From Sneathiella sp. HT1-7 (GTDB lineage: Bacteria; Pseudomonadota; Alphaproteobacteria; Sneathiellales; Sneathiellaceae): a stretch of 64,000 bases of DNA. Both the position numbers and the translations under genes were made by a program. This document shows, one piece after another, positions 7,596-10,972 of the stretch; the stretch's first letter is position 1, and each line of letters begins with the position of its first letter. The DNA lies in NCBI RefSeq assembly GCF_020731145.1, contig NZ_JAJFZN010000003.1:620001-684000 (forward strand). The letters are read 5' to 3'. The notes beneath the pieces are model-generated. The model saw only the letters and a list, made by a program, of their open reading frames with translations, was not told the origin of the DNA and ran no database searches.

Positions 7596-8579
7596 ATGGT
7601 TGATATCGTCACGCTATTTCCTGATTGGCTACGCTCCGAGAATATGCTGGCCCTGATCGCGGGAGGTGCCTCCTTTGCGGTTGTTCTGATGATGTGGAAC
7701 GCGTTTCTAGTAAAGGACGCGTTGCCGGGCCGGATCAAGAACCTCGAAAAACGCCGAACCAAGTTGAAAACTGATCTGGCCAACGAGACGAAACAGCGCA
7801 GCAAGCTGGTCGTACGCGAGAACATGATGCATCGTGTGGTGAAGAAGCTGCAACTGATGCGGGGTGAACGAGCAAAGGTGATGGCGGCCAAGCTGGCCAA
7901 GGGCGGATGGCGATCGAAAGATGCACTGGTGGCCTATCTTTTTGCCAAGGTTTCCCTGCCGCTTTTATTTACTGTACTGACAGCAGCTTATCTTTTTGGG
8001 ACAAGCGCGGTGGAATGGTCTGTTCCAGTGAAACTGCTTGCCTCGGGCTTTGCCGGTTTCATTGGATATTTAGTGCCTGACACATTGGTGAAAAACAAGA
8101 TAGCGAAACGGTATCAGGCAATCCGTAAGTCGCTTCCCGATGCGCTTGATCTTCTGGTGATTTGTACAGAGGCGGGGCTCAATCTGGATAGTGGACTTGA
8201 TCGGGTTTGCCGGGAGATTGCAAATTCCGCACCTGAGCTGTCTGATGAAATTGGTCTAACTTCAATTGAAATCGGTTTCTTACCGGATCGTAGAATGGCG
8301 CTTGCCAATCTTGCGGCGCGCGTGGACTTCCAGGCGATGACCACGCTGGTTAATACTTTGATCCAGACAGAGAAATATGGCACGCCACTCGCTGTTGCAC
8401 TTCGGGTGCTGGCGGCGGAAATGCGGGATGAACGCCTGATGAAAGCCGAAGAAAAGGCCGCTCGCTTGCCAGCCATTATGACGGTGCCAATGATTGTCTT
8501 TATCCTGCCGGCTTTGTTCATTGTTTTGATCGGCCCTGCGGTTCTGAAAGCAATCGATGCTTTCTCGGGCGGCAGCTGA
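7596..8579 (+). CDS. tadC: Tad pilus inner-membrane platform protein TadC
   Basis: 327 residues. An N-terminal helix is followed by a charged, Arg/Lys-rich cytoplasmic stretch (residues 45-100), two helices near 115-165, and the T2SF domain (SLPDALDLLVICTEAGLNLD; EIGLTSIEIGFLPDRRMALA; TLIQTEKYGTPLAVALRVLA). A last hydrophobic segment (TVPMIVFILPALFIVLIGPA) closes the protein. This is the normal TadC layout. GGAGAGAG lies 4 bases before the ATG. tadC is the last gene of the operon here; the tadD, tadE, tadF and tadG genes often found next are not on this strand in the window. Confidence 0.93.
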   Translation: MVDIVTLFPDWLRSENMLALIAGGASFAVVLMMWNAFLVKDALPGRIKNLEKRRTKLKTDLANETKQRSKLVVRENMMHRVVKKLQLMRGERAKVMAAKLAKGGWRSKDALVAYLFAKVSLPLLFTVLTAAYLFGTSAVEWSVPVKLLASGFAGFIGYLVPDTLVKNKIAKRYQAIRKSLPDALDLLVICTEAGLNLDSGLDRVCREIANSAPELSDEIGLTSIEIGFLPDRRMALANLAARVDFQAMTTLVNTLIQTEKYGTPLAVALRVLAAEMRDERLMKAEEKAARLPAIMTVPMIVFILPALFIVLIGPAVLKAIDAFSGGS

Positions 8580-8723
8580 CCGCGGCTGGCGGGTTACGGT
8601 TGGGCACTCAAACTCCAATAGCTATAGCTTCCTCCTGCGTCTTATAAGAATTCAGGCGCCGTTATAGTTTGTTTCAGTGTGAGGAAGGTTCAGTCGCTTA
8701 CCCTTACATAGAGCAGCCCATCA

Positions 8724-8948
8724 CTTTCCATGGGATATCCATGCTCTATCCAAGTTATTTCCATGGTCCTTCTGTAACTCTCCACTATTCTCCATGTTTG
8801 CCCATTGTTTGGGGCTTTTAGTTGGGTTATCGGGGGCTTTCCATGAATTTCCAGGGCTACCCTGGGCTGCCCTGGGAACTCCAGGGCTCCCCAAGGTTTT
8901 CCGGTGAAAGCCCATGGATGCCCAGAATTTAGATAAATAGGGCATGGA
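8724..8948. repeat. Helically phased array of degenerate CCATGG-like hexamers (period 10-11 bp)
   Basis: Hexamers related to CCATGG start at 8728, 8739, 8750, 8761, 8782, 8792, 8802, 8841, 8851, 8860, 8870, 8881, 8891, 8901, 8912, 8922 and 8942. Nearly all spacings are 10 or 11 bases or twice that. Variants include CCATGC, CCAAGT, CCATTG, CCAGGG, CCCTGG and CCAAGG. The non-core bases are T-rich on the upstream side in the first half. There is a gap with only G-rich blocks at 8811-8840. The words are self-complementary, so many inverted repeats can form, for example CCCTGG-CCAGGG at 8870-8886. Function unknown; see findings. Confidence 0.7.
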
Positions 8949-9062
8949 GCGGGAAAGGAAGGCTTTAACTTGATGGAGGAGAGCGGCCCGTTCAGTAGAA
9001 AGGGACAGTGCTGGGGCAGTTTCAAGCTAAAGGGGCGCAATGTGACAAAGAAGTATCTGCAT

Positions 9063-9094
9063 AAAAAAACGGGCCGATGGTAAGCCGGCCCGTT
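9063..9094 (-). terminator. Rho-independent terminator of the TPR-SPOR gene
   Basis: AACGGGCCG (9068-9076) pairs perfectly with CGGCCCGTT (9086-9094) around a 9-base loop. Read on the minus strand, the 9-bp GC-rich stem is followed at once by a run of seven T. It lies 22 bases after the stop codon of the minus-strand gene. Confidence 0.85.
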
Positions 9095-9115
9095 CGTCGT
9101 TGATCTGACTATCTT

Positions 9116-10972
9116 TTAGAGAGCGCCACTAAAGCCTTCTCCGAATTCGGCTGTCAGGTTCGGCTCCGTTGGCGTCCTCGGTTTGTTTGCATCCTTGCTA
9201 TCCACCATCCGCTGGTTCGGGGCGAGGGAGGGCGTGCTGTCTTTCTTGGCAGGTACTTTGGCTTCTGTGGGCATAAAGCAATCAAACTTGCGATCCCGAA
9301 GACTGCCGCAAAGTTGCATTGTCCGCATCTTGTCAGTAAAGCCGCCAATTTTCAGACGGTAAAACATGCCGCCCTTTTCTTCACCTAGGTCAATCTCTTG
9401 AATAACAGGATCGACGTCACTGAGCAGATCGACATTCTGGGTCTGCACAATCCTCCAGCCTTTTTCTGCGTCGGACTTTTCTTTGTAAGATCCGATCTGC
9501 AGGAAGTAGCTGCCACCATCAGGTTTATAGGCACGAACTTCACTATTTAGGGGCATGTCTCCCGGCACCAGACCTACTTTAGTAACGGCCAGAGCTTTGT
9601 CTTCGGTAGCTTTGGTAAGGACAGCCTCGCTTTTCTTGGGTGAAGCCGGAATTGCTTTTTTGTCCAGCGTCCATTCACGTGCCGGGGCAGGGGTTTCTGC
9701 CTTTGCCATGGTCACGGGTTTTTCAACCGGTGCGATTTCTTTCTTTACAAAAGTGACAGGCTTTTCCTTCGCCTTTTCAGGTTTTTTCATTGCCGTGACA
9801 GTCGGCTTTTCAATCGGCTTCGGAGCCTCTTTCTTGGCTACAACAACCGGAGCAATATCCTTTACCGGAGCCTCTTTTGACATTGGCGGTTCGGATTTTG
9901 CCATCATCATTAGAGCATTTGATTCCGGGACAAGACTTTTCGGTTGCGTCTTGAAAGGAGATGTTTTCTTGCCCTTGGTAGCGTCCGTGCCGAGCGTTTC
10001 TTCATCCAGGCGGGAAACTAATATATCTGGATTTTCCGGCAGGCGTGGCATGTTGCCTTTCGCCCGCTCTTCGGCGGCGACTGTAACATGCGAGGCTTTC
10101 ATCTTTTTGATTTGATCATCAAGAGAGGCAACCTGTTCGTCCGCGTTGCTATTCAGCGCTTCAAAGTAAAGCGCATTGTTGCGGGCATCCTCTTCTGAGA
10201 GATCCATACGTGAATATTTCATCGCCTCACCGGATTTTCCGGCCAAGCCATAGGCAAGCGCTAAAGTCTGACGATGCTTAGCCGTTGCATTCGGGTTTTC
10301 CGTAACAACTTTCAGAATTGCAATTGCCTGCTCAGTCTTGCCAGAGAGGGCGAGAGATAGTGCCAGATTACTCTTGTGATTGAGGTTATTTGGATCTGCC
10401 TTGACGGCGCGCTGATAATAGCTTTGTGCCTGCTCATGATCGCCAGCCTTGTCGAGAGCAACCGCGAGGCCGCCAAGTGATTTGCCATCATTGCTGTCAA
10501 TTTCGAGGGCATTCGTAAAGGACTGAGAGGCGAGATAGGGCTTTTCCATCTGCAGATGGCTGAAGCCGATGCCGTGATGTGCTGCGAGATTGCTTGCATC
10601 GAAGGCAAGAATGCGCTGATAAACGGTAATGGCCTCATGCGGCCGACCCGTTTTACGCAGTATTTCGCTGATTTTGAGATAAGGCGCGGGATCTGTTGGT
10701 CGCTGTTTGGCAGCGGTGGCATAAATTCCGAGTGCCGTGGTAGCGTCATTCTTCTGCCACGCCCGCTCTGCAACCCGCAACATTGCCTCATAAGACATCG
10801 CCTTTGATGTGGTGGCATCGCTGGAGGTGGTTTTTGTAATAGCAGGCGGAGCTCCAGCCGGATCGGCAGAAGCAGATTGATCCGAAATAGTGTTACAACC
10901 CGCGGCAACCAAGCCAGTCGTAGCGAGAAGTACAGTCCGGAAACGAGCGGCAAGACGTATATTTTGCGGCAC
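9116..10972 (-). CDS. TPR-repeat lipoprotein with C-terminal SPOR domain (TadD-like)
   Basis: 618 residues. The signal peptide ends in a lipobox (VAAGC, Cys 26). Residues about 60-260 are tandem TPR repeats (EAITVYQRILAFDASNLAAH; QSYYQRAVKADPNNLNHKSN), the fold found in TadD pilus lipoproteins. A Lys/Pro/Val-rich linker of about 130 residues follows (APKPIEKPTVTAMKKP), then a SPOR domain near residues 480-565 (GGSYFLQIGSYKEKSDAEKG; GMFYRLKIGGFTDK). SPOR domains bind denuded peptidoglycan. The protein is therefore probably anchored in the outer membrane and reaches through the periplasm to septal or otherwise remodelled wall. The start is a GTG with AGAGAGG upstream. It is placed next to the tad operon but transcribed toward it. 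A TadD role is inferred from domain and place; the SPOR addition is unusual. Confidence 0.78.
   Translation of the reverse strand: MPQNIRLAARFRTVLLATTGLVAAGCNTISDQSASADPAGAPPAITKTTSSDATTSKAMSYEAMLRVAERAWQKNDATTALGIYATAAKQRPTDPAPYLKISEILRKTGRPHEAITVYQRILAFDASNLAAHHGIGFSHLQMEKPYLASQSFTNALEIDSNDGKSLGGLAVALDKAGDHEQAQSYYQRAVKADPNNLNHKSNLALSLALSGKTEQAIAILKVVTENPNATAKHRQTLALAYGLAGKSGEAMKYSRMDLSEEDARNNALYFEALNSNADEQVASLDDQIKKMKASHVTVAAEERAKGNMPRLPENPDILVSRLDEETLGTDATKGKKTSPFKTQPKSLVPESNALMMMAKSEPPMSKEAPVKDIAPVVVAKKEAPKPIEKPTVTAMKKPEKAKEKPVTFVKKEIAPVEKPVTMAKAETPAPAREWTLDKKAIPASPKKSEAVLTKATEDKALAVTKVGLVPGDMPLNSEVRAYKPDGGSYFLQIGSYKEKSDAEKGWRIVQTQNVDLLSDVDPVIQEIDLGEEKGGMFYRLKIGGFTDKMRTMQLCGSLRDRKFDCFMPTEAKVPAKKDSTPSLAPNQRMVDSKDANKPRTPTEPNLTAEFGEGFSGAL

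Follow-up and report, generated by a model that had tools for sequence, protein, structure and literature searches.

What reads, or once produced, a long run of degenerate words repeated every 10-11 bp between two converging genes is the question raised by a noncoding spacer in the genome of Sneathiella sp. HT1-7. The window analysed here is the whole stretch of 64,000 nucleotides of contig NZ_JAJFZN010000003.1 (positions 620,001 to 684,000), and this genome (G000) was compared with those of two sister species (G007 and G019). A preliminary description had reported about 17 CCATGG-like words at 8724-8948, and had proposed as possible explanations a binding platform for a protein, a bent segment or a decayed 10-mer minisatellite. 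The array is real, rare and partly constrained, and each of these explanations, together with a further one involving the transcript of the upstream gene, can be weighed against its periodicity, its distribution and its conservation.

Organization and genomic setting of the array

The spacer (8580-9115) separates tadC, on the plus strand, from a convergent gene, and is organized as follows.

7596 to 8579, plus strand: tadC-like gene with a T2SSF domain, the last of a tad pilus cluster, ending 137 bp before the array
8637 to 8672, plus strand: terminator-like hairpin after tadC, GCGTCTTATAAGAATTCAGGCGC (from sequence and alignment)
8716 to 8809, plus strand: 5' half of the array, 9 units starting at 8716, 8726, 8737, 8748, 8759, 8770, 8780, 8790 and 8800 (unit model)
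8810 to 8828, no strand assigned: irregular stretch with no CC cores and weak traces of unit 3' ends, GGGGCT and TTGGGTT (from the sequence and a 29-bp step)
8829 to 8929, plus strand: 3' half of the array, 10 units starting at 8829, 8839, 8849, 8859, 8869, 8879, 8889, 8899, 8910 and 8920 (unit model)
9067 to 9095, minus strand: intrinsic terminator of the TPR-SPOR gene (terminator scan)
9116 to 10972, minus strand: convergent gene with TPR repeats and a SPOR domain

The unit model, trained on the G000 spacer and the two sister spacers, resolves 19 units of consensus YTCCATGGNT, all in the same direction, over 8716-8929. The words first noticed are indeed present in the noncoding spacer, essentially where they had been placed, but their number and limits give way to those of the model, and the word at 8940-8948, formerly counted as a member, is out of phase and falls outside the chain. 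Steps in the 5' half measure 10 or 11 bp (11 bp in four of eight), and this half is C-rich and G-poor on the plus strand (C 29, G 12); those of the 3' half, nine units of which have orthologues in G007, are of 10 bp with a single exception of 11 bp. When the three species are pooled, 39 of 40 unit steps are of 10 or 11 bp.

The autocorrelation of 8724-8948 reaches 0.437 at 10 bp and 0.435 at 11 bp, compared with 0.254 in dinucleotide shuffles (z = 5.95 at both periods), with echoes at 20-22, 30-31 and 40-41. None of 2000 shuffles attains these values, and the check set beforehand, namely whether shuffled sequences would reproduce the 10-11-bp periodicity, thus came out in favour of a non-random array. 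Against a genomic background made of 400 kb of stretches, and using 150-bp windows, the array window ranks top of 464 kb for the composition-corrected 10+11-bp signal (0.404, the runner-up being at 0.236; z = 7.9), and the unit model gives the array a score of 71, compared with at most 15 for the rest of the 464 kb. Since Tandem Repeats Finder retrieves just a 2.3-copy fragment (8854-8876), the array is too degenerate for a current minisatellite; instead of near-identical head-to-tail copies, it contains units which are orthologous between species and have not been homogenised.

The gene coordinates agree with the location first proposed, between convergent 3' ends and not in a promoter, and no promoter was found inside the spacer. 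A coding repeat, already disfavoured in the preliminary description, is ruled out by the 10/11-bp step together with the lack of any long open frame common to the three species, which makes the array a feature of the DNA or of the RNA. The hairpin following tadC displays a poor T tract in G000, is not called by a simple terminator scan, and is retained in close relatives. Beyond the array, the region 8930-9066 is strongly purine-rich on the plus strand (G 47, C 19), which results in a 29% C>G window on the transcript strand of the convergent gene, the second among 80 gene 3' regions. Across the genus, both flanking genes stay in place around a spacer of 33 to about 483 bp.

Two candidates at the RNA level were set aside. 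A structured RNA is not favoured by the folding scores of the plus strand (z -1.45 in G000 and -1.54 in G007) or of the minus strand (-2.80 in G000 but just -0.57 in G007), and the Rfam search gave no match above gathering scores. A CsrA sponge, which would expose ANGGA motifs on the minus strand, fits only about 5 of the 19 units.

Distribution and constraint among related species

The nearest named relatives according to TadC are Sneathiella sedimenti, S. litorea and S. chungangensis (92%). The array occurs in three of the 20 scorable tadC spacers of the genus (z = 6.9, 8.3 and 4.7) and is absent from the other 17. Because the three carriers form a single supported clade in the tadC tree (97/99), sequence comparison points to a single gain as the most likely origin, and, because its presence is clade-limited, the array is dispensable in the genus. 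Pattern and profile searches, used as a first-look filter, find it once per genome in the three species, always in the same tadC/TPR-SPOR spacer. The genome search for further arrays of the same word that had been advocated earlier was also run and, at the sensitivity of the pattern and profile searches (the latter scoring 150 candidates per genome), returned nothing beyond chance elsewhere in the genome or the genus. A profile search of 289 genomes of the class (22 candidates scored per genome) yielded one weak match that looks like chance, and plasmid and phage records gave no DNA match. With respect to G000, an 11-bp unit and a 49-bp block are missing in G007; the assembly of G019 contains a run of N inside the array, which obscures its copy number.

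Both sister species keep the array with a constrained CC core, so that the check on related strains suggested in the preliminary description came out against refutation. Orthologous units are identical at 107 of 150 positions, compared with 81 under random pairing (0/5000); the units remain recognisable as orthologues and are older than the species split, so that no homogenisation has occurred since. Depending on the position in the unit, conservation is very unequal, CC reaching 0.91-1.0 and the others 0.32-0.77. Orthologous pairs retain the CC dinucleotide in 28/30, 15/16 and 14/16 cases, compared with 0.59-0.67 identity among the three species at the 4-fold sites of tadC (p = 1.4e-4, 0.024 and 0.032), a test based on three species with units registered by hand and eye, in which some ascertainment bias remains. 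The seven outer positions, with 0.52-0.65 identity, evolve like 4-fold sites, at neutral speed. Taken as a whole, the array is 0.72 identical, compared with 0.70 and 0.67 for the flanking spacer, and the core alone stands out.

These figures bear directly on the idea of a decayed tandem repeat, according to which slippage in the common ancestor of the three species once created a 10/11-bp minisatellite in a spacer free of constraint between two terminators, and this functionless repeat has accumulated mutations ever since. Such a history accords with the restriction to one locus and one clade, the free length of the spacer in relatives (33-483 bp), the whole-unit differences between species noted above, an overall identity equal to that of the flanks, and the frequency of near-perfect 10-11-bp tandem arrays of any word in viral contigs. 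It accounts poorly for the gap between CC and the other positions and for the retention of CC above the level of 4-fold sites: in simulations of the neutral decay of a perfect array, analysed with the same detection, the two best positions reach 0.77-0.88 compared with 0.955 for the observed CC, none of 150 runs attains the observed value at four divergence levels, and the spread among positions is far smaller. The decayed minisatellite of the preliminary description survives as a live reading, next in rank after a binding platform, although we regard it as rather unlikely, its purely neutral version being disfavoured by the simulations.

Helical phase, DNA shape and the tadC transcript

The words had been supposed to occupy one face of the helix. 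At 10.5 bp, phase coherence is as low as R = 0.07 for the entire G000 array, whereas the 5' and 3' halves taken singly give 0.94 and 0.76, respectively; the corresponding values for G007 and G019 are 0.64 and 0.92. A single period fits best at 10.1 bp for G000, 10.2 for G007 and 10.5 for G019. The phasing is near-helical, and a single face is true of each half but not of the whole, barring over-twisting or wrapping of the DNA.

A related proposal would make the array a bent or wrap-prone DNA, whose shape would be read by gyrase, HU or a similar nucleoid protein and which would absorb positive supercoils between the converging genes. In this respect, the sequence switches between T-rich and CC/GG segments with a period of 10.1-10.5 bp, the location between convergent genes is suitable, and the bend predicted over 120 bp exceeds that of shuffles in G007 with both models used (p < 0.004 and 0.007) and in G000 with one model (p = 0.017). 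However, the second model gives an unremarkable p = 0.27 in G000, and a predicted bend is expected of any sequence with a 10-bp period. Moreover, shape by itself needs no invariant CC accompanied by a far freer GG half, and other convergent spacers are devoid of a similar element. The bend put forward in the preliminary description is thus predicted, but as the explanation of the array it appears very improbable.

Another reading, absent from the preliminary description, is a possible Rho-utilisation (rut) site on the tadC transcript. The RNA running past the weak tadC terminator would present a YC every 10-11 nt, fitting the six primary RNA sites of Rho, which would stop transcription before its antisense entry into the TPR-SPOR gene. 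Rho is encoded in the genome, and the invariant YCC always lies on the sense strand of tadC, from about 45 nt past the terminator hairpin. The best 78-nt window has a C-G excess of 23% (C/G 3.25) in G000 and G019, and among the 80 gene 3' regions the array takes 6th place for C>G and 2nd place for YC dinucleotides chained at 10-11 nt; in the same set, the opposite strand comes 2nd and 1st, respectively. Published descriptors of rut sites consist of (YC)N9-13 repeats in C>G bubbles (PMC9160355) or of a C every 11-13 nt within 78 nt (PMC6407284), and the start-to-start distance of 10-11 in the array corresponds to a linker of N8-9, at the short edge of the published N9-13. The array resembles such sites in its spaced YC dinucleotides and, in G000 and G019, in a C>G stretch downstream of a gene, but differs from them by a strict 10/11 spacing maintained over 210 nt, where a single Rho hexamer needs <80 nt, by a G-rich 3' half containing as many G as C, and by an RNA that shows no deficit of structure relative to shuffles (z -1.45 and -1.54, as above), whereas rut sites should be poorly structured. 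In addition, the C-G excess of the best window falls to just 12.8% in G007, the linker between Rho sites is variable in length (PMC12350095), which leaves the strict spacing unexplained, and a bipolar C>G pattern is not a significant general property of convergent spacers (p = 0.10, n = 11 pairs). On balance, a rut element seems improbable, although it counts, with the decayed repeat, as a serious rival of a binding platform.

A proposed binding platform and its known counterparts

A DNA-level platform for a sequence-specific protein, as listed among the first proposals, remains one live reading among several and is the best-supported one, although we hold it only tentatively. The combination of a kept CC core with a drifted remainder suggests a landing strip for a DNA-binding protein, and the regular 10/11-bp spacing (39 of 40 steps), the single direction of the units and the failure of neutral decay to match the retention of CC argue in the same sense. 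We infer that every 10-11-bp unit would be occupied by one subunit of such a protein, with recognition chiefly of the (Y)CC(A) core, and that subunits would cooperate head-to-tail in one direction at about one per helical turn. The resulting filament or wrapped nucleoprotein complex would extend over some 150-210 bp in the spacer where tadC and the TPR-SPOR gene converge. Its effect would likely be local: it might insulate the two transcription units or act as a roadblock between them, or else serve as a single anchoring site on the chromosome. Against such a platform stand the winding of the G000 words around the helix, the overall conservation of the array DNA, no better than that of the flanking spacer, the dispensability of the array in the genus, and the failure of the searches to yield a candidate protein, with no partition gene beside the array, the nearest integrase-domain match on the contig about 145 kb away, and no second array in the genome. 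No tRNA was found in the window.

Three known proteins offer a structural precedent for placing one subunit per turn along loose direct repeats: BldC forms head-to-tail filaments in which each subunit takes one turn (PMC5859096), RdfS occupies about 10 bp per subunit (PMC11963761), and ParR binds 10-bp repeats (PMC5016525). The sites of the winged-helix filaments of BldC (smeA-ssfA) and RdfS (attP) consist of asymmetric direct repeats at about one turn per subunit, of variable site length, with a loose consensus in which an AT-rich part is followed by C, AATTXXXX(C) for BldC (PMC5859096, PMC11963761). The Sneathiella array similarly comprises direct repeats of one orientation about one helical turn apart; however, BldC and RdfS sites are promoters or att sites accommodating about 2-4 subunits, whereas the array contains 15-19 units between convergent 3' ends.

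With parC/ParR and other plasmid centromere iterons, the array has in common many direct repeats of about 10-11 bp, splittable into two blocks by an interruption. It differs by its chromosomal location, by units that are far more degenerate, and by its neighbours, tadC and the TPR-SPOR gene instead of a parM-parR partition operon. The StbA_N profile (ParM-type motor) has no match in 24 genomes, control genomes being likewise without a match. Arm-type (attP arm) sites of tyrosine integrases differ in that no integrase gene occurs close to the array, the nearest PF00589 match on the contig lying at C5:482803, about 145 kb away. A more daring version of the platform would be a single-copy centromere- or insulator-like filament nucleation site on the chromosome, where a clade-specific protein would coat about 200 bp between two convergent operons at one subunit per turn, a class of platform without a described example at chromosomal 3'-3' junctions; we consider it quite unlikely. 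To our knowledge, such nucleoprotein filaments have not been described between convergent genes.

Comparable arrays were sought in viral contigs by scanning for five TCCA words set at a constant interval, with the word ACCT at 10 bp as a control. Degenerate arrays turned up at steps of 10 and of 11 bp; a 13-bp step gave none, its matches all being near-perfect minisatellites or close to it. Since ACCT is as common overall as the TCCA words, the word itself is not special. Integrase arm-type sites, origin iterons and packaging sites are established places of multi-site protein binding, and the degenerate phage arrays with nameable neighbours occur beside tyrosine integrases (L298 and relatives, L383, L405), inside an O-like replication initiator gene (L354 and relatives) and beside a terminase small subunit (L329). 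Their location suggests that they bind proteins, and, since they stand at the places expected for such sites, the 10-11-bp geometry would be a recognisable sign of multi-subunit DNA binding. Like the Sneathiella array, those of L298, L304, L345, L383, L405, L354 and L329 associate a fixed 4-5-base core including TCCA with a degenerate rest at 10- or 11-bp steps; unlike it, they have 5-9 units as a rule and lie within or adjacent to the gene whose product presumably binds them.

Among individual contigs, the phage family of L298, L304, L160, L345 and L209 carries 5-7 TTCCAAATCR units at 10 bp, about 90-165 bp from a gene for a 382-aa tyrosine integrase and close to its start, which are probably arm-type sites. 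Five 11-bp YTCCANNNGNA units, probably origin iterons, occur inside the O-like initiator gene of L354, L356, L359, L361, L364, L368, L377, L400, L433 and L467, and similar AATCCATGGGG units inside an unnamed gene of 255-258 aa in L384 and L465. The nine GTCCA units at 10 bp beside the Terminase_2 gene of L329 are possibly a packaging (pac) site. An array of 14 TTCCANNNNN units that includes a 70-bp internal duplication (L139:2498-2637) begins about 15 bp past the stop of a phage gene encoding 826 aa and is followed by a small excisionase-like HTH gene. About nine (A/G)TCCAGGNNC units, close to the Sneathiella word, are found in a short metagenomic viral contig (L245:1320-1406) between an amidoligase-like gene and another gene.

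Degenerate 10-11-bp word arrays could serve to find protein-binding platforms, such as integrase, initiator and terminase sites, in uncharacterised phages. As for the Sneathiella array, its meaning depends on its reader: if neither a protein nor Rho reads it, it would offer a well-dated example of tandem-repeat decay; if Rho does, the RNA geometry of the Rho hexamer would be printed in a natural sequence; and if a protein does, the array would represent a long natural platform with one subunit per turn, whose DNA is a ready bait for that protein.
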